DNA from: Chrysemys picta bellii
Taxonomy: Eukaryota; Chordata; Testudines; Emydidae
Length of the DNA: 64,000 nt
Assembly: GCF_011386835.1 (NCBI RefSeq)
Contig: NC_088791.1
Location: 27,564,998 to 27,628,997, forward strand
Reading direction: 5' to 3'
Below, one piece after another: positions 1,859 to 63,334 of the stretch. The first letter of the stretch is position 1. Every line of letters begins with the position of its first letter. Both the position numbers and the translations under genes were made by a program. The notes under the pieces are model-generated. The model was given only the letters and a program-made list of their open reading frames with translations. It was not told where the DNA came from and made no database searches.

Positions 1859-4800
1859 GTTAAAAGGGGCTGATACTCAGAGTGGCTCTCATTGAACCAA
1901 TATGGACTGAAGGTCATAACAAATTTGAAAATCCTAGATTTTGTGGCACTGGAGGTCACAGGAAGTCAGACAACAAATACTAAGCAGGAGCTATTGGGTA
2001 AGCAGAGCTCAAACAGCTTAAAAAGCAGTTGGAACAAAATAACCCTCAGAATTCTCTGGGTTTCAGAACGGAGATTTTCTTGAATTTGTAGAACTTGTCG
2101 AAAATAAAGAACTTTCCTAGAAAAACAGTTAAGGGACACTTAGGAATCACAAGAACAGTAGTTTCTTTGGATGTCCAGGATAGATAGGGAAAGACTGCAG
2201 CAAAGCAGAACGAAGGAATAAAAATAGATGAATAAAAAACCTGATTTTTGCCTGACTTTTGTCCTACAACTCACTAGAGGAGAAAGCTGCTTAGTAACAT
2301 AAAAGCCTTTATTGGTGAAGGCATTTCTGTCACCCTCCAGTTCTCAGCAAAACTCCGTATCATCCATGCCAGCAAAACCTCTTTGGAGACGTGATTCCCT
2401 TCTCAAAGCTCCCCGAAAAGATCACAGAGTACTATTTTTGGAACATCAAGGACCCAAACCTGCACTCCTTTCATACCTGAAGCTCCCACTGAGTTACGTT
2501 TCCTTGAGCCCCTGGCTAATTTTTGTGGCTTTTCAATCCCATTTTCTTATTTTTATTTTTTTCTTCCCTTTTTTTGTGTGTGAAAGACCCAGACTGCACA
2601 GGAGGAAGTGATTGACTGCAGGGAGAACATTTAAAAATAATTATACACAAAATGCTGTCAAGTGCACAGGGTGAACAAAGTGACAAAACAGAGAAACATT
2701 ATTTTCTAATCTCTTTCAGTTGGCATAATTTTAGGTGCTATTTGTAACACTAGTAGATAAAGCAACTCCAGAGAGAAGTGTAATTTTTAATCTGGTGTCC
2801 CTTAAATAGTTCAATGAATTAAAACAAGGGGATACCTCCAAATACCAAAGTGCAACAGACCAGGCACATTAGGGAATGAGATGAGAAGGCCCCTTAATGT
2901 GTGGAGGTCAATCTTCCTTGTTTCCTTTCATGTTTGTTATTAGCTTCATATTCTTTTGATGTGTGGCAGATTTTTTTGCGGGGGGGAGAGTTTGCATTAG
3001 TAAATGTCATTCTATGTGTTATTTGGTCTTTGTAATTGTGTGATATGCAATTAGTATGGACAGAAACACAGAATAGTGTGATATAACAATCAACATGGGA
3101 ATGCCAGGAGAGAATCTACTCCTCAAGCATAACAGATTTTAACCTAAAATTGTTATATTTTAAACTATTTTCAAAATGGTAGCGATGTTTAGATTATTAT
3201 GAACTATGGCGTGTGTAACGGTCTGGAAGCGGTCTCCTGTGAACACTCCCTAGTAGCTGGTGTTTTGGATCCTGCCGGGGCCTGAAACAGTGAGTCAGCA
3301 AGACTCCTTTACCAGGTGAGGTTTATGGATATAAAGAGGATGGGAATAGCCTTCTACCCTAAGAGAGTCTGTGGATCTGATGGACGAACTAGGGTCTTGG
3401 TTGAACAGCTTTGAGGCATGAACCCTAGAAGCAACCAAACCTAGTGAGAAGGCATGGGATGGACTTCATGTTATCTTCCAGTTCATTTCTCTGTTAACAA
3501 GGGCTACATCCCATGGGAAGAGGGTGAGTTTTGATTTTGCACAGTGCGTGGACTGTCTTTTAGAGCAGATTGGGAAATAGGTGTATTTTGGTGTTGCTCA
3601 TGAATAATAATCAGAATGACATGGATTATTCATGTCTCTGGTGAAGTGTTACTAGACAGAGCACTATACCCAATCACAAGATGAATTGCCAACAGAAAAC
3701 AGTGCTATCAGAAATATGACCAAAAAATTCTTTTTGGATCCTCTAGCCATTTTTCTGTTCCTCCTTTGTATAAGAAAGAGTGGCATGCCATTCAGTGGTT
3801 AATTACTACCATTATCTGCCTCATCTGCCTTGAAATCAGCCTGTCAGATTTTAAAAGTTTTATTATGTAGCAGGAACTGAGCTTTCTGCAAATAGAAATG
3901 GCAAGATTTATCTTTTCATGTGAGCATTTGGAAAATTCTTGAATGCTTCTGAAAACATTCATAAAGCCTGTTAGGCTGGAAGTTAAACTACTGTCCCTAA
4001 CAGAGCAAGTAACATAATCATAGCAGATCTAATGAGCAGTAGGCTTCCATTCAGAGTTCTGGTCCCCTATTCCATGAAGTCTGAATACAGAATCTGTTAA
4101 AATCCTTTTTTTCCCCCTATTACTATGCAAGAAAATGCTGCAAACAAAGAAGCCAGGTCACTTATCAATCTATCCATATAAACTCCTGTAATTCTTCACC
4201 GGAAAAGGCACATAGAATCTTACTCCTTGGGTTTTTTAAAACTTTTATAAACATTTTGATATTTCTTGCATACTCTACACAGTCTCTGACCCTCCGCATT
4301 CCCTGCTAGCAGAGTCGGGCTTCAACACCCATGGATGACTGTGTAAAAGATAACTGCCAGATCCTGCTTGGTAGTCTACAAATAAAAGGAGGAAGTGCTG
4401 TGTTTACCTTAGGTGTTGGCTAAACAAGAGGCCATTCATGATGTTCTATCAAAAAGGTGCTAGAACAGCCCTACAAGCCAGCCCCAAACCAAACAAGTTT
4501 GGCTAAGAAGTTTCCGACCTCTTGATTCTCCCATTCAGTAGGACAGTCTTGCTCCTGCCGTGCATAGCTGTGGGCAGCTTTACATCTATTGTGTGCCCCA
4601 GAATCCTGTACAAGTGCTGCCACAGCCCCTCCTTCGCAGCACTGCTGCAACCAAGGCAAAGGATGCTTGCTGGACACATTTGGAAAAGAAAAGGCACTTT
4701 CTGCAGATGAGTGAGTGGAAGCAGATACCACATGTAGCCCTCCAAAAGTCTTCTCTCCTCCTCATCGCCGGGGAAAGCAGTGACATTGTCTTAGGCCAGC

Positions 4801-5406: not shown

Positions 5407-5535
5407 AGGGCTTGACAAAGCCCTGGCTGGGATGATTTAGCTGGGAATTGGTCCTGCTTTGAGCAGGAGGTTGGACTAGATGACCTCTTGAGGTCCCTTC
5501 CAACTCTGATATTCTATGATTCTATGATTCTATGA
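5407..5535 (+). mobile_element. CR1 LINE 3' end (lineage A), severely 5'-truncated
   Basis: The sequence from GGCTTGACAAAGCCC to the ATTCTATGATTCTATGA tail is nearly identical to the last 130 bp of the long CR1 at 57,270-60,478. It holds the last codons of ORF2 and the short 3' UTR ending in the 8-bp repeats typical of CR1. Extreme 5' truncation is normal for CR1 insertion. Confidence 0.95.
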
Positions 5536-54537: not shown

Positions 54538-55077
54538 TCCTGTTTTCTCAAACAGAGTTGGAGACAATTGGCACACAGGCAACAACTCCCTTTTGCAGAA
54601 ACCACAGGTAAAACACTGCTGCCCTGTCCCAAGAAGCTGCTGGCTTGAGCTGCTTCTCACTAGGATTTAACACAAAACTAAAGGCTTGTCTACACTGCCA
54701 AATTTTTTCGATGAAACGAATGTCGCCAAGGAAAAATCGACAAAAGCAAAGTCGCCAAAACATGTCTACATTTGCTCCCTCTGTCGACAGATCATGTCCA
54801 CATTTGGGGCACTTTGTCGACAGTGAGAGCAATGGACTGTGGGTATGTATCCCATAGTGCCTGGCGACAACATCCATTGCTAGATGTTGTGGGAATGCGG
54901 AAACGGAGCGCGGCACATCCTGGGATGTGCCAAATGTATCGTCATGTACCACTATGTGTCCCACCCCTCCAAAGGTCTATGGCTTCCTTTTGCGCTGTTT
55001 TTCCAACTGTCATTCTTTTGCAGTGCACGCCAGCATCTGCAGTGAGAGAGGATGGATCCCGCACTTTTCTCCTATGC

Positions 55078-55977
55078 TGTCAAGGCTGCTTCCCCACTTT
55101 GAACTTTAGGGTACAAATGTGGGGGCCTGCATGAAAACTTCTAAGCTTAACTACCAGCTTAGATCTGATCTGCTGCCACCATTCCCAAGTGGATTCCCTT
55201 CCCTGGGAAGCCTTGAGAAACTCTTCACCAATTCCCTGGTGAATACAGATCCAAACCCCTTGGATCTCAAAACAAGGAGAAATTAACCATTCCCCTCCTT
55301 CCTCCCACCAACTCCTGGTGAATGCAGTTCCAACCCCCCTGGGATCTTAAAACAAGGAGAAATTAACCATCCCCCCTCCTTCCTTTCACCAACTCCTGGT
55401 GAATACAGATCCAACCCCCTTGGATCTAAAAACAAGGAAAAATCAATCAGGTTCTTAAAAAGAAGGTTTTTAATTCAAGAAAAAGGTAAAAATCATCTCT
55501 GTAAAATCAGTATGGAAAATAACTTTACAGGGTAATCAAACTTAAAGAGCTCAGAGGACCTCCCTCTAGCCTCAGGTTCAAAGTATAGCAAACAAAGATA
55601 AACACTCTAGTAAAAGGTACTTTTACAAGTTGAGAAAACAAAGATAAAAACTAACACGCCTTGCCTGGCTATTTACTTACAAGTTTGAAATAGGAGAGAC
55701 TTGTTTAGAAAGATGTGGAGAACCTGGATTGATGTCTGGTCCCTCTCAGTCCCAAGAGCGAACGAACTCCCAAACAAAGAGCACAAACAAAAACCTTCCC
55801 CCCACCAAGATTTGAAAGTATCTTGTCCCCTTATTGGTCCTTTGGGTCAGATGCCAGCCAGGTTACCTGAGCTTCTTAACCCTTTACAGGGAAAAGGATT
55901 TTGGAGTCTCTGGCCAGGAGGGATTTTATAGTACTGTACACAAGACAGCTGTTACCCTTCCCTTTATAGTTATGACA
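55078..55977. mobile_element. Solo LTR of 900 bp, perfect TSD TATGC
   Basis: It begins TGTCAAGGCTGC and ends AGTTATGACA and is flanked by TATGC on both sides (55,073-55,077; 55,978-55,982). It contains near-tandem copies of a roughly 60-bp phrase: CAATTCCCTGGTGAATACAG at 55,230, CAACTCCTGGTGAATGCAG at 55,308 and CAACTCCTGGTGAATACAG at 55,389, each followed by CTTGGATCT or CTGGGATCT and AAACAAGGA. No internal region is attached. It lies upstream of the transposase reading frame and may have removed part of its 5' region. Confidence 0.95.
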
Positions 55978-56056
55978 TATGCGCTGTTAGCTGTCGTGAG
56001 GACACCATGCATAGCAGCACAATTACTCTCTGAGTTACTCGCAAAGTTAGCAGAGG

Positions 56057-57041
56057 ATGAATTGCAGGCACCCAAGTGTGATATGGACAGCAGCAATTTA
56101 TCAGTGCTTTGTGCATTCAGAGCAGCTGCATACGGTAGACCATCGCTTTTGGGCTAGGGAAACAAGCACTGATTGGTGGAATCACATTGTCATGCAGGTG
56201 TGGGATGACAACCAGTGGGTACAGAACTTTAGGATGCGTAAAGCAACCTTCACTGAGCTATGTGCTGAGCTGGCCCTCGACCTGCGGCGCAAGGACACCA
56301 GATTGAGAGCTACCCTTCCAGCAGAGAAGCATGTTGCTATTGCTGTGTTGAAGCTAGTGAATCCAGACCGCTACCAGTCATTTGCAAATCAATTTGGAGT
56401 AGGAAAATCCACTGTTGGGGCTGTATTACTCCACGTGTGCAGGGCAATCAATCGCATCCTGCTGCATAGGACCGTGACTCTGGGAAATGTGCATGAAATA
56501 GTGGATGGCTTTGCAAAGATGGGTTTCCCTAACTGTGGCTGGGCGATTGATAGCACACACATTCCAATTTTAGCACCAGAGCACCTTGCCTCCGAATACA
56601 TCAATAGGAAGGGATACTTCTCCATGGTGTTGCAGGCACTTGTGGATCACCGTGGGCGTTTCATAGACATCAGTGCAGGCTGGTCTGGAAAGGTGCATGA
56701 CGCATGCATCTTCAGGAACAGCGGCCTGTACAGAAAGCTGCAGGCGGGGACTTTCTTTCCAGACCGCAAGTTCACAGTGGGGGATGTGGAAATGCGCATA
56801 GTAATCCTGGGAGACCCGGCTTACCCCTTACAGCCCTGGCTCATGAAACCTTACACAGGGCACCTGGACAGCAGCAAAGAGCATTTTAACAACAGGCTGA
56901 GCAGGTGCCGCATGGTAGTCGAATGTGTCTTTGGCTGTTTGAAAGCTTGCTGGAGGTGTTTAAATGCAGGCTAGACCTTACCGAGGATAATATTCCTGTG
57001 GCCATAGCCGCGTGCTGCACTTTGCATAATCTGTGTGAATC
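56057..57041 (+). pseudogene. PIF/Harbinger DDE transposase, main body
   Basis: The 305-codon open frame (56,057-56,974) covers most of a DDE_Tnp_4-type nuclease that cuts and reinserts the element at TWA sites. Residues 31-62 form the conserved N-terminal block (FWARETSTDWW). A helix-turn-helix-like segment spans 111-131 (NQFGVGKSTVGAVL). The catalytic candidates are D165 in IDSTHIP, D215 in GKVHDACIF and E289 in VVECVFGCLK, with GDPAYPL at 252-258. After codon 305 a TAG is met, and the homologous C-terminal segment (LDLTEDNIPVAIAACCTLHN) continues in another frame up to 57,041, so there is one frameshift near 56,950-56,970. The start is uncertain: the ATG used may be internal because the family's N-terminus normally extends further. 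The C-terminal tail resumes at 60,549. All three acidic residues are kept. Confidence 0.93.
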
Positions 57042-57270
57042 TAAGGCCTGATCCACACTAACCCCCCATTTTGAACTAAGGTACGCAAATTCAGCTACGT
57101 TAATAACGTAGCTGAATTCGAAGTACCTTAGTTCGAACTTACCGCGGGTCCAGACGCGGCAGGCAGGCTCCCCCGTCGATGCCGCGTACTCCTCTTGCCG
57201 AGCTGGAGTACCGGCGTCGACGGCGAGCACTTCCAGGATCGATCCGGGATCGATTTATCGCGTCTAGACA

Positions 57271-57489
57271 GGTGCTAATGCGGAGAGTGGACTAGATGGC
57301 CCATCTGAGGGAAGGGAGCAGAAGGAGACTCCACCGATTGGAAGGAGAGAAGGCTTTGGATTCTTCGACCATGGGATGGTGTTCCAAGAAGAAGGAGTGC
57401 TAGGCAGAGACGGGCTCCACCTAACGAAGAGAGAGAAGAGCATCTTCGCCAGCAGGCTGGCTAACCTAGTGAGGAGGGCTTTAAACTAG
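57271..57489 (+). pseudogene. CR1 ORF1 C-terminal fragment
   Basis: An uninterrupted 72-codon frame without its own ATG runs from the CR1 junction to a TAG at 57,487-57,489. It contains FGFFDHGMVFQEEGV and LGRDGLHLTKREKSIF, the block that in CR1 ORF1 belongs to the C-terminal esterase-like (SGNH-type) domain, where DGLHL carries the last catalytic-type residues. ORF1 protein binds RNA and assists reverse transcription. The N-terminal part (with its zinc-finger or PHD-type domain) was lost by 5' truncation. ORF2 starts 45 bp downstream. Confidence 0.85.
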
Positions 57490-57533
57490 GTTCACCGGGG
57501 GAAGGAGACCAAAGCCCTGAGGTAAGTGGGGAA

Positions 57534-60383
57534 ATGGGATCCTGGGAGGAAGCACAAGCAGGAGAGCGCAAGAGGGGAGGACTCCTGTCTCATGCTGAGA
57601 AAGAGGGACGATCATTGAGTTATCTTAAGTGCCTATACACAAATGCAAGAAGCCTGGGAAACAAGCAGGGAGAACTGGAAGTCCTGGCACAGTCAGGGAA
57701 CTATGATGTGATTGGAATAACAGAGACTTTGTGGGATAACTCACATGACTGGAGTACTGTCATGGATGGATATAAACTGTTCAGGAAGGACAGGCAGGGC
57801 AGAAAAGGTGGGGGAGTTGCGTTGTATGTAAGAGAGGAGTATGACTGCTCAGAGCTCCGGTATGATACTGCAGAAAAACCTGAGAGTCTCTGGATAAAGT
57901 TGAGAAGTGGGAGCAACAAGGGTGATGTCGTGGTTGGAGTCTGCTATAGACCACCAGACCAGGGGGATGAGGTGGACGAGGCTTTCTTCTGGCAACTAGC
58001 AGAAGTTGCTAGATCGCAGGCCCTGGTTCTCATGGGAGACTTTAATCACCCTGATATCTGCTGGGAGAGCAATACAGAGGTGCACAGGCAATCCAGGAAA
58101 TTTTTGGAAAGCGTAGGGGACAATTTCCTGGTGCAAGTGCTGGAGGAACCAACTAGGGGCAAAGCTTTTCTTGACCTGCTGCTCACAAACAGGGAAGAAC
58201 TAGTAGGGGAAGCAAAAGTGGATGGGAACCTGGGAGGCAGTGACCATGAGATGGTCGAGTTCAGGATCCTGACACAAGGAAGAAAGGAGAGCAGCAGAAT
58301 ATGGACCCTGGACTTCAGAAAAGCAGACTTTGACTCCCTCAGGGAACAGATGGGCAGGATCCCCTGGGAGAATAACATGAAGGGCAAAGGGGTCCAGGAG
58401 AGCTGGCTGTATTTTAAAGAATCCTTATTGAGGTTGCAGGAACAAACCATCCCGATGTGTAGAAAGAATAGTAAATATGGCAGGCGACCAGCTTGGCTAA
58501 ACAGTGAAATCCTTGCTGATCTTAAACGCAAAAAAGAGGCTTATAAGAAGTGGAAGATTGGACAAATGACCAGGGAGGAGTATAAAAATATTGCTCAGGC
58601 GTGCAGGAGTGAAATCAGGAAGGCCAAATCACACTTGGAGTTGCAGTTAGCAAGAGATGTTAAGAGTAACAAGAAGGGTTTCTTCAGGTATGTTAGCAAC
58701 AAGAAGAAAATCAAGGAAAGTGTGGGCCCCTTACTGAATGAGGGAGGCAACCTAGTGACCAAGGATATGGAAAAAGCTAATGTACTCAATGATTTTTTTG
58801 CCTCTGTCTTCACGCACAAGGTCAGCTCCCAGATTGCTGCACTGGGCAGTACAGCATGGGGAGAAGGTGACCAGCCCTCTGTGGAGAAAGAAGTGGTTCG
58901 GGACTATTTAGAAAAACTGGACGTGCACAAGTCCATGGGGCCGGATGCGCTGCATCCGAGGGTGCTAAAGGAGTTGGCGGGTGAGATTGCAGAGCCATTA
59001 GCCATTATTTTTGAAAACTCATGGTGATCGGGGGAGGTCCCAGATGACTGGAAAAAGGCTAATGTAGTGCCCATCTTTAAAAAAGGGAAGAAGGAGGATC
59101 CGGGGAACTACAGGCCAGTCAGCCTCACCTCAGTCCCTGGAAAAATTATGGAGCAGGTCCTCAAGGAATCAATTATGAAACATTTAGAGGAAAGGAAAGT
59201 GATCAGGAACAGTCAGCATGGATTCACGAAGGGGAAGTCGTGCCTGACTAACCTAATTGCCTTCTATGATGAGATAACTGGCTCTGTGGATGAGGGGAAA
59301 GCAGTGGATGTGTTATTTCTTGACTTTAGCAAAGCTTTTGATACTGTCTCCCACAGTATTCTTGCCACCAAGTTAAAGAAGTATGGGCTGGATGAATGGA
59401 CTGTAAGGTGGATAGAAAGCTGGCTAGATCGTCGGGCTCAACGGGTAGTGATCAATGGCTCCATGTCTAGTTGGCAGCCGGTTTCAAGTGGAGTGCCCCA
59501 AGGGTCGGTCCTGGGGCCGGTTTTGTTTAATATCTTTATTAATGATCTGGAGGATGGTGTGGACTGCACTCTCAGCAAGTTTGCAGATGACACTAAACTA
59601 GGAGGCGTGGTAGATACACTAGAGGGTAGGGATTGGATACAGCGGGACCTAGACAAATTAGAGGATTGGGCAGAAAAAAACCTGATGAGGTTCAACAAGG
59701 ACAAGTGCAGAGTCCTGCACTTAGGACGGAAGAATCCCATGCACTGCTACAGACTAGGGACCGAATGGCTAGGTAGCAGTTCTGCTGAAAAGGACCTAGG
59801 GGTCACAGTGGACGAGAAGCTGGATATGAGTCAACAGTGTGCTCTTGTTGCCAAGAAGGCTAACGGCATTTTGGGCTGTATAAGTAGGGGCATTGCCAGC
59901 AGATCGAGGAACGTGATCGTTCCCCTTTATTCGACATTGGTGAGGCCTCATCTGGAATACTGTGTCCAGTTTTGGGCCCCACACTACAAGAAGGATGTGG
60001 AAAAATTGGAAAGAGTCCAGCGGAGGGCAACAAAAATGATTAGGGGTCTGGAGCACATGACTTATGAGGAGAGGCTGAGAGAACTGGGATTGTTTAGTCT
60101 CCAGAAGAGAAGAATGAGGGGGGATTTGATAGCAGCCTTCAACTACCTGAAGGGGGGTTCCAAAGAGGATGGAGCTCGGCTGTTCTCAGTGGTGGCAGAT
60201 GACAGAACAAGGAGCAATGGTCTCAAGTTGCGGTGGGGGAGGTCCAGGTTGGATATCAGGAAAAACTATTTCACTAGGAGGGTGGTGAAACACTGGAATG
60301 CGTTACCTAGGGAGGTGGTGGAGTCTCCTTCCTTGGAGGTTTTTAAGGCCCGGCTTGACAAAGCCCTGGCTGGGATGATTTAG
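57534..60383 (+). pseudogene. CR1 ORF2: APE endonuclease and reverse transcriptase, one nonsense codon
   Basis: A 949-position frame with a single in-frame TGA at 59,025-59,027 (codon 498). Residues 33-245 form an APE-type endonuclease that nicks the target. Active-site motifs are visible: N37 in YTNARS, E64 in TETLW, D169 and N171 in GDFNHPDI, and D237/H238 in SDHEMV. The reverse transcriptase follows: NYRPVSL near 525, the LDFSKAFD palm motif near 596, [11 protein letters not shown] near 652, and the catalytic pair D685-D686 in FADDTKLGG. The C-terminal thumb and the CR1-specific [10 protein letters not shown] ... [18 protein letters not shown] region continue to 60,383. The TGA sits where CpG decay of CGA (Arg) would produce it. 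The start at 57,534 is the first ATG after ORF1. Without the stop the protein would be family length. Confidence 0.95.
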
Positions 60384-60548
60384 CTGGGAATTGGTCCTGC
60401 TTTGAGCAGGGGGTTGGACTAGATGACCTCTTGAGGTCCCTTCCAACTCTGATATTCTATGATTCTATGATTCTATGACGCGATAAATCGATCCCAGAAG
60501 ATCGATTGCTTACCGCCGGACCCAGAGGTAAGTGTAGACCTACCCTAA

Positions 60549-61157
60549 GAGTGAAATGTTTGCTCAGGTGTAGAGCACTGAGGCAGAGCACTTGGGTGCA
60601 CAGTTTGAACAGCCAGATGCTAGGGCCAGGGCCGGCTCCAAGTTTTTTGCCGCCCCAAGCACAAAAATTTTCTCGCGTCCCCCCCCCCCCGGCCCACCCC
60701 AACTCCACCCCTTCCCCGCCCCATTCCAACCCCTTCCCCAAATCCCCGGCCCCGCCTCCTCCTCCGAGCATGCCACATTTCCCCTCCTACCCCTCCCTGG
60801 GAGGGAGGGGGGAGAAGCGGAGCAGCAGCGTGCTCAGGGGAGGAGGCAGAGGTGTGCTGGTGAGGGGAGTGGTTCCTCTGCCCCCCCCACAGGGTTACTT
60901 CCTGCGGCCCTCCCCGCGCCCCCCACCACCGCAGCTCACCTCCATTCAGGGCCAACTCCTGGCTTTTTGCGCCCCAAGCAAAAAAAAAAAAAAAAAAGGA
61001 GCTGGAGTGCCGTCCCTTGGAAAGTGCCGCCCCAGGCACATGCTTGGAGCACTGGTGCCTAGAGCCGGCCCTGGCTAGGGCTGTCACAGGAGCCCAGAGG
61101 GCTGCTATTAACATCAGAGAGGCTTTGAGGAACCACTTTGACAGTGAGGGGAAGTAA
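60549..61157 (+). pseudogene. PIF/Harbinger transposase C-terminal tail, split by a hAT MITE
   Basis: This continues the transposase at 56,057-57,041 across the MITE/CR1 insertion. Reading resumes with SEMFAQV, meets an in-frame TAG at 60,571-60,573, then STEAEHLGAQFEQPDAR up to 60,626. The hAT element 60,627-61,073 and its duplicated 8 bp interrupt. The frame then continues VTGAQRAAINIREALRNHF to a TAA at 61,155-61,157. The same FEQP motif ends the relic at 51,300, confirming the family. An AATAAA lies downstream at 61,294. Confidence 0.85.
60627..61073. mobile_element. hAT MITE, CAGGGCCGGCTC family, perfect 8-bp TSD GCTAGGGC
   Basis: The termini CAGGGCCGGCTCCAAG and CCTAGAGCCGGCCCTG are inverted. 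GCTAGGGC flanks both ends (60,619-60,626; 61,074-61,081). The subterminal TTTTGCCGCCCCAAGCA and TGCCGCCCCAGGCACA recur as in the copy at 45,073. The interior is GC-rich with a run of 18 A near 60,980. The ORFs on both strands are frames through low-complexity DNA. Confidence 0.96.
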
Positions 61158-61293
61158 CACGTCTTCTTTGGCGTTGCTTCCCTGTTGCATCCATGTACAA
61201 TTTTGGGGCCCAAGATCTGTGCAACACAATGCTCTAGGTCAGGAACCTGTTCCTGAGAGTGAATTGATTGCTATACACTTTTGTAGAACACAG

Positions 61294-61328
61294 AATAAAA
61301 ACGCTGTAATATTATTTATTTATTTATT
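61294..61328. promoter_or_regulatory. Shared convergent polyadenylation zone
   Basis: AATAAA at 61,294-61,299 (plus) lies 137 bp after the transposase stop. TTTATT repeats at 61,315-61,328 provide AATAAA on the minus strand just 19 bp beyond the Myb/SANT stop at 61,347. The two Harbinger genes thus end facing each other. Confidence 0.6.
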
Positions 61329-61346
61329 GTTAAAAAGGGTAAAATC

Positions 61347-62946
61347 TCACAACTGTGTGTAGCTCCAGCTATCATTATGCAAGCTGTGAGAGGGGGTGGA
61401 GTGGTCGGGAAACTCAGGAGTGTTGTGAAGTGAAAAGGAATGTATGGGCATAGAGGGGGGTGAGGTTGGCAAAGAATTGTGCATCTGCTGCAGTGGCGCT
61501 CGAACTCGGATCTGCTCAGTCTGCAGCTGTATCAGAGACTTGAGTATCTCTGTCTGATCCTCCATAACTTTCAGCATCCGCTCTGTCGCTTGCCTAGCAA
61601 AAGCAGCATTCTCTTTTCTGTCCTGCCTTTCGGCTTCCCAGCACTCTTTCTGTTCCCCGGTATGTCTCTCATTGTGCTGTATAACCTCGCGGAACATGTC
61701 TTCTTTGCTGCGCCTAGGGTTTTTTCTTATCTGCTGCAGCCGGTCCGCGGGGGTGTGTGGTGTGTCCTTCAAGGTCTGTGCTGAACAGAAGAGGGATTGT
61801 TACATTCCAGCGAACAACTGAAACATTTTAGTAAAAAGGGCATTTTGCTAGTAGAAATCACTTTCTCTCTGAGACCCAAGGCAGGCACACAGCTCCGCGA
61901 GCACCCCAATCATGGTGAGTTTCGGAAGTGGGGGGAAGCCAGTTGTGCATACCGACAAAAAGGCCACAGCTTGCAGGGTACCTTTGCAGGGATCGCATTC
62001 TAAAATTATCCCACTTTTTCACAGGCGGGCAACCTGCTGGCTGACATCTCGCTGCTGAGGGTGGCCAGAGAAACCATGGGTCAGCTGCTGAATGCTTGCG
62101 ACTTTCACCCCGGTCTATATGGAGCTCAGCTATGTGCTGCTTTGGTCCCAGCTCCAGTGATTGCTAATGGCCTGGGACAGTTTCCTACAATAGGGGAACT
62201 ACAAGGCTGCCATCCCTTGGAATCTGCAGCAGAGGATTAACAAGTACCTGTTGGAAACTTTCCAGAGCCTCTCTCTCGAGGATTCCCTGCAGGTCTCGAT
62301 GTCCATCGACACCCTGCTTGGCCATGCAGATTAGCTACACAGGGCAATGTCCAGCTCACAGTAAACACTACCTGCCTTCCACTTTTTGATTCCCTACACA
62401 AGCCACAGCAACTTACCCAGAGTCTCATCTGCTTCCTGCTCCCCACTGAGCACTTCTGAAGTGGAGAAAAGTCCTGGCTGCCTGCCCCACCAGGCAACCC
62501 TGCTGGGAGCACCACATCCTCTTCTAGCTCAACCTCTTCATCCACAATGTCAGCCTCCGGGTTACCCCCCTTTCAGCTGCATGCGAAGTATCCACAGGGC
62601 AATCAGCGATGGAGGAGGGGTCACCACCGAGGATAGCATTCAGCTCTTTATAGAAGCGGCAGGTCTTAGGTGCACCACCGGAGCTATGGTTCGCCTCCCG
62701 CGCCTTATGGTACGCCTGCCTCAGCTCCTTTATCTTTGCTCTGCACTGTTGCATGTCCTGATCATAGCCCTTTTTGCACAAGCCCTGAGAAATTTGCCCA
62801 TATGTGTCCTGATTCCTATGGGTCACTTGCAGCTGCGACTGAACAGACTCCTCTCCCCATATACTGATCAGATCCAACAACTCAACGGTGGTCCAAGCAG
62901 GAGCACATTTGGTGCGATAGCCAGCCATGCGCACCTGGGAAGCCAC
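61347..62946 (-). pseudogene. Harbinger Myb/SANT-like DNA-binding protein, two exons
   Basis: Exon 1 starts at the ATG at 62,946. Residues about 12-110 form a Myb/SANT (trihelix) domain: APAWTTVELLDLISIWGEE, then CRAKIKELRQAYHKAREAN and CRFYKELNAILGG. A one-base frameshift at the G run near 62,565 and another near 62,465 are needed to read on through the acidic VDEEVELEED stretch to SGEQEADETL. A consensus donor (CTGG|GTAAGT, GT at 62,416-62,415) and acceptor (TTCTGTTCAG|CACAG, exon 2 from 61,780) join in frame. Exon 2 encodes TPADRLQQIRKNPRRSKEDMF, a coiled-coil-prone segment (RQATERMLKVMEDQTEILKS) and a Ser/Pro/His-rich tail to 61,347. The protein is the transposase's DNA-binding or nuclear-import partner in this superfamily. 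The splice prediction is mine; the two indels make this copy probably non-functional. Confidence 0.88.
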
Positions 62947-63334
62947 CTGGGAAGCTCCTCTGAAAAGCCAGCAAACAGGAAATGAGATTTAAAATTCCCC
63001 GGGCTTGCAAGGGGGAGGGGCAGGTTGGCTGCAGGGCAGCGGAGTTCAAACCGCTGACCAGAGCGGCAGCATGGGAATTGTGGGATACTTTCTGGAGGCC
63101 AATAAAATAAAATAATAAAAAATAAAACTGTGGTGTCTACACTGGCTGTTTGTCAACAATAAAGGGAGGGGAAAAGACAAAAATCTCTCGCAGGAGTGGA
63201 AGCTTTTTGTCGCCAAATCTAGGCAGGGTTTTTTTTTTTCGAAAAAAGTGACCTTGCAGTGTGTACACTATCGCTGTTTTGTTGCCAAAAGCCAGTTTTT
63301 GGTGACTAAACTTGCAAATGTAGACAAGCCCTAA

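Follow-up and report, generated by a model that had tools for sequence, protein, structure and literature searches.

In which order did five mobile elements come to lie within and beside one another at a single locus of the painted turtle? The locus is part of a 64,000-nucleotide stretch of the Chrysemys picta bellii genome (contig NC_088791.1, positions 27,564,998 to 27,628,997; here called the window, whose own numbering is used throughout) and is framed by a degenerate PIF/Harbinger DNA transposon. An earlier note on this DNA had described a five-element nest delimited by target-site duplications (TSDs): TAA for the Harbinger, TATGC for a solo long terminal repeat (LTR), TAA for a Harbinger-type miniature inverted-repeat transposable element (MITE) and GCTAGGGC for a hAT-type MITE, with a CR1 long interspersed nuclear element (LINE) inside the first MITE. 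All of these elements and duplications were present, and the description was correct almost to the base. The observation is confirmed and the order of insertions that the note had drawn from it is supported. The following features were assigned:

54682..63331, plus strand: PIF/Harbinger element including inserts; TSD TAA at 54679-54681 and 63332-63334; ends match the family end of sister copies
55078..55977, plus strand: solo LTR, TGTCAAGG...TTATGACA, 900 bp; TSD TATGC at 55073-55077 and 55978-55982
56051..56971, plus strand: transposase remains, DDE_Tnp_4 (PF13359, E 1.5e-32)
57045-60545, plus strand: MITE plus CR1 insert, 3.5 kb; TSD TAA at 57042-57044 and 60546-60548
57045..57270, plus strand: MITE left part, up to the hairpin loop; TSD TAA at 57042-57044
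57271..60478, plus strand: CR1 (PF03372 and PF00078), three ATTCTATG units at its 3' end
60479..60545, plus strand: MITE right part; TSD TAA at 60546-60548
60627..61073, plus strand: hAT-type MITE, 447 bp; TSD GCTAGGGC at 60619-60626 and 61074-61081
62524..62988, minus strand: Myb/SANT-like gene, DNA-binding-domain stretch (PF13837, E 1.1e-17)

Nesting fixes the succession Harbinger, MITE, CR1 only; it gives no order for the LTR, the MITE and the hAT-type MITE among themselves. That the CR1 is younger than the MITE and the MITE younger than the Harbinger, as had been claimed, follows directly from this arrangement. As the earlier note had proposed, the insertion-free sequence was aligned to other Harbinger copies, here 20 paralogs fetched out of 39 other transposase matches, and a site was counted as ungapped when no gap lay within 12 bp of the join. 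The LTR site was ungapped in 16 paralogs, spanned with a gap of five to six bases in two and without a match in two. At the MITE site, 18 copies were ungapped and two were spanned with one gap each, of 21 bases and of 1 base, while the hAT site was ungapped in 18, spanned with a 9-base gap in one and unmatched in one. None of the 20 paralogs carried the LTR, MITE or hAT insert at these sites (matching site sequence being absent in two for the LTR and in one for the hAT). Two of them, L016 and L019 (C12:20.1 and 22.2 Mb), have the same internal deletion and flanks alike at 95-98% identity. They are one segmental duplication, and because of these shared flanks the sample amounts to 19 independent paralogs. 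Since in the sister copies the target is unbroken and each duplication sequence occurs once, the nest goes beyond chance.

The junctions were examined in the 2.37-Gb assembly using the left junctions of the MITE (172 bp), the LTR (170 bp) and the hAT (160 bp) as queries. Forty candidates were scored per search, out of 795 (MITE), 1428 (LTR) and 528 (hAT) found at first look. Among these scored candidates, each query was matched from end to end at this locus only; the remaining listed matches ended at the junction or at most 17 bases from it. The finding that would speak against its order, according to the earlier note, was the recurrence of an insert at one internal position across many loci. 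Such recurrence was found neither at the junctions nor in the 20 paralogs, and 19 of 19 other MITE copies read (from 39 matches) were free of the CR1. The junction evidence is strong, not exhaustive.

Divergence between copies also gave an order. Kimura two-parameter (K2P) distances of the window Harbinger to the 20 paralogs were 0.091-0.137 and the tree was star-like, with terminal branches of 0.046-0.071 in all of its 21 copies except L016 and L019. The terminal branch of the window copy measured 0.047 (bootstrap 95% range 0.039-0.054; 19 paralogs) for the Harbinger, 0.011 (0.005-0.018; 12 copies) for the LTR and 0.011 (0.000-0.023; 19 copies, 291 bp) for the MITE. The CR1 has 39 other listed matches of rounded 100% identity over approximately 3.1 kb, which are spread over many chromosomes. 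Divergence places the Harbinger first, then the LTR and the MITE, which are inseparable, and finally the CR1, in agreement with the nest. Ages are given as relative only, without absolute dates. Concerning rates, PMC13221643 quotes 2.30 x 10^-10 for C. picta yet uses 1.0 x 10^-8 per generation, PMC4054807 scales its rate to the human one only, while no rate number occurs in the available part of PMC5451010.

The outer element measures 8.65 kb with its inserts and 3.8 kb without them. When the inserts and one copy of each duplication were left out, 3,786 bp remained, matching the 'about 3.79 kb' calculated before. End-to-end lengths of 10 sister copies ranged from 2,868 to 4,718 bp; five fell between 3,670 and 3,768 bp. 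Membership in PIF/Harbinger is indicated by the 3-bp TAA duplication, which conforms to TWA, and by terminal inverted repeats. The ends AGGCTTGTCTACACT and GGGCTTGTCTACATT are related to the family end GGGCTTGTCTACACTGGCAAGT deduced from sister copies. Matches to PF13359 and PF13837, both above the curated cut-offs, identify remains of a DDE transposase gene and, apart from it, of a Myb-like gene, as in the known two-gene layout of a Myb-like ORF1 (open reading frame 1) and a DDE transposase between terminal inverted repeats and a 3-bp duplication (PMC2836001). Of the claim that both ends and both genes persist in the insertion-free sequence, the part on the ends held, whereas the genes are merely recognisable remains: the transposase frame ends at a stop (56972-56974) upstream of the MITE site. 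At least 39 other transposase matches with 89-92% identity exist in the assembly, and the protein relatives of the transposase, 120 listed of 544, all bear turtle names, side-necked turtles among them. Eleven transposase matches of 90-91% identity stop at query base 682-684 (six at C11:79.0-80.6 Mb, one at C11:64.09 Mb, the others on the small contigs C9208, C3652, C3174 and C4271), suggesting that a truncated form of the element was amplified locally. An Rfam search of the whole window at gathering thresholds yielded no match.

The solo LTR has TG...CA ends and a TATGC duplication within the 4-6-bp range. It is a single LTR without interior, and Harbinger sequence follows immediately outside. 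In 12 other LTR copies the flanks were exact 5-bp repeats in nine, one-mismatch repeats in two and no repeat in one. Two Harbinger paralogs, L026 and L027, contain LTR-like inserts at the identical base after GGCAT, around base 4000 when the copies are oriented to the element (Harbinger position near window 62171). Both inserts start with TGTCAA and are otherwise different in sequence, and GGCAT is repeated in L027 at the point where the Harbinger sequence resumes. These insertions at one base may reflect a hot spot or a coincidence.

Without the CR1, the Harbinger-type MITE is a short, non-coding element of approximately 0.3 kb with TAA on both sides and the inverted-repeat ends GGCCTGATCCACAC and GGGTAGGTCTACAC. 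They are unlike the ends that the host Harbinger has, and comparison of the MITE left half (57043-57264) with the host revealed no match. Identical 3-bp flanks were counted by eye in 11 of the 19 other copies. The five-base loop between the hairpin arms was kept in 18 of the 19, the last one having a small deletion there. The hAT-type MITE is bordered by the 8-bp duplication GCTAGGGC on both sides and has a perfect terminal inverted repeat (12/12 bp, CAGGGCCGGCTC). Its left 84 bp gave one listed match (91%), and the best relative among the sequences compared reached 76% identity over 143 bp, which hints at an older insert. A second left-end-like stretch (CAGGGCCAACTCC...CGCCCCAAGC) occurs 320 bp inside this element (window 60947-60992), as though it had arisen from two relatives, fused or nested, that have one right end in common.

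The CR1 occupies the loop between the MITE hairpin arms. It encodes an endonuclease and a reverse transcriptase (PF03372, PF00078), has the octamer 3' tail and is 5'-truncated, starting within ORF1; the flanks showed no target duplication. Its 5' edge is uncertain by three bases, as ACA is common to the CR1 and the MITE target. A 5'-truncated CR1 copy cannot generate new copies by itself. In comparison with two other copies that were read through this region, 423 bp of ORF1 are missing in frame near 57344-57346. The edges of this gap share one to two bases and its length is a multiple of three; splicing was rejected as its origin, the edges not being GT...AG. None of the 39 matches aligned through the gap point. 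The first 75 CR1 bases aligned separately in 32 of them, mostly 421 bp upstream (412 in one), and no such piece was listed in the other seven. An in-frame TGA in ORF2 (59025-59027) reads CGA in eight of nine readable copies and TGA in one. Over the last 1 kb, six of the top matches were two to four bases off the window copy, which has two private substitutions; two of the six were identical to each other. Very young CR1 elements in the painted turtle (PMC4316615) and the octamer tail of CR1 (PMC2612034) had been reported previously.

Elsewhere in the window, positions 5409-5535 hold a 127-bp CR1 3' fragment, 99.2% identical to the nested CR1, making it a second young CR1 within the window. It is very doubtful that extruded MITE hairpins offer nick sites attracting LINE insertion. 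A search with one gapped exact pattern joining CR1 tail and MITE arm returned this locus and one differently arranged place, so that at this sensitivity the MITE loop was not seen to be a hot spot for CR1. In that other place, C10:84645497-84645540 (minus strand), a CR1-like octamer directly adjoins the centre of an intact MITE hairpin; it may be the end of a further CR1 within a MITE, or a product of chance.

All these results are best explained by a decayed copy from a Harbinger burst that served as a landing pad for unrelated mobile elements, each arriving by its own mechanism (probability about 0.92). One copy out of an old, star-like burst of turtle PIF/Harbinger elements would have decayed, presumably already residing at this locus. 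A retrovirus-like element would have integrated and lost its interior, probably through LTR-LTR recombination, to leave the solo LTR. A MITE would have been pasted into the transposase gene with a 3-bp duplication and a hAT-type MITE slightly further along, each by the enzymes presumed for its class. Latest, target-primed reverse transcription would have placed a 5'-truncated CR1 copy in the first MITE's hairpin loop. This reading is carried by the boundaries and duplications, the locus-only junctions among the candidates scored, the empty sites in paralogs and in the other MITE copies, a branch order that matches the nest, the near-identity of the CR1 to its other copies, and the transposase and Myb domains.

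Several points weigh against it. The MITE branch was estimated from 291 bp and its range reaches down to 0. Moreover, a terminal branch reaches back to the divergence from the closest copy in the sample, and this divergence may predate the insertion. For the hAT layer there are hints only and no proper age estimate. The empty-site comparison covers 20 of the 39 other Harbinger matches. Only left junctions were queried, with 40 candidates scored out of 528 to 1428. Finally, the comparisons are with paralogs; no orthologous locus was seen.

As a cut-and-paste element can carry inserts elsewhere, the nest orders insertions into the Harbinger and not its arrival at the locus. The insertions might have happened while the Harbinger lay elsewhere, and the element, inserts included, might later have been cut out and pasted here by means of another copy's transposase, making the outer TAA younger than some inserts. 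PIF/Harbinger elements as a rule transpose by cut-and-paste and excise precisely (PMC2836001), and such a move is compatible with the nest alone. However, Harbinger terminal branches of 0.046-0.071 (apart from the segmental duplication) stand against approximately 0.011 for LTR and MITE, and nothing in the branch lengths points to a family still mobile when the inserts arrived. To judge from these longer branches, a later move appears unlikely, with no more than an outside chance. As excision usually removes the element precisely together with one TSD copy (PMC2836001), an empty orthologous site would not date the Harbinger or the MITE layer cleanly. The LTR and the CR1 belong to kinds of element without precise excision.

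Composite amplification, in which the Harbinger carried at least one insert along as it multiplied or the MITE did so with the CR1, found no support and was rejected as extremely improbable. Against it speak junctions matched across at this locus only among the 40 candidates scored per query, the empty sites in paralogs, 19 CR1-free MITE copies and the CR1-tail/MITE-arm pattern, which recurs once in a different arrangement. Least credible of all is a misjoin of separate repeats during assembly. Every part is a high-copy repeat prone to misassembly, but each of the three direct inserts is flanked by a matching duplication of its own, and across each of them the Harbinger sequence runs on in register with the paralogs.

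The nest is well resolved but ordinary. Nested elements are common in animal genomes, and the nest by itself adds no new kind of biology; young CR1 in the painted turtle is already known. It provides a clean marker with three levels in a lineage that evolves slowly: among related turtles each further layer is expected to appear at a shallower split, and within the species the CR1 layer may still be polymorphic. A description of this nest was not found in the literature titles and abstract beginnings searched, which does not establish its absence from print.

As in earlier analyses of nested transposable elements and transposon interruptions (PMC2517846, PMC2672092), a younger element interrupts an older one, and the sequence of events is deduced from the nest. 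The present analysis differs in that it resolves a single locus at base level and checks it by paralogous empty sites, without genome-wide statistics. With the PIF/Harbinger elements described in PMC2836001, the window element shares the 3-bp duplication, inverted repeats, DDE transposase and separate Myb-like gene; it differs as a dead turtle copy which inserts have enlarged from 3.8 to 8.65 kb. The nested CR1 resembles the amniote CR1 LINEs of PMC4316615 and PMC2612034 in its endonuclease, reverse transcriptase, 8-bp 3' repeat units and 5' truncation, and differs from them by the in-frame 423-bp gap in ORF1, as judged from the two copies that were read there.

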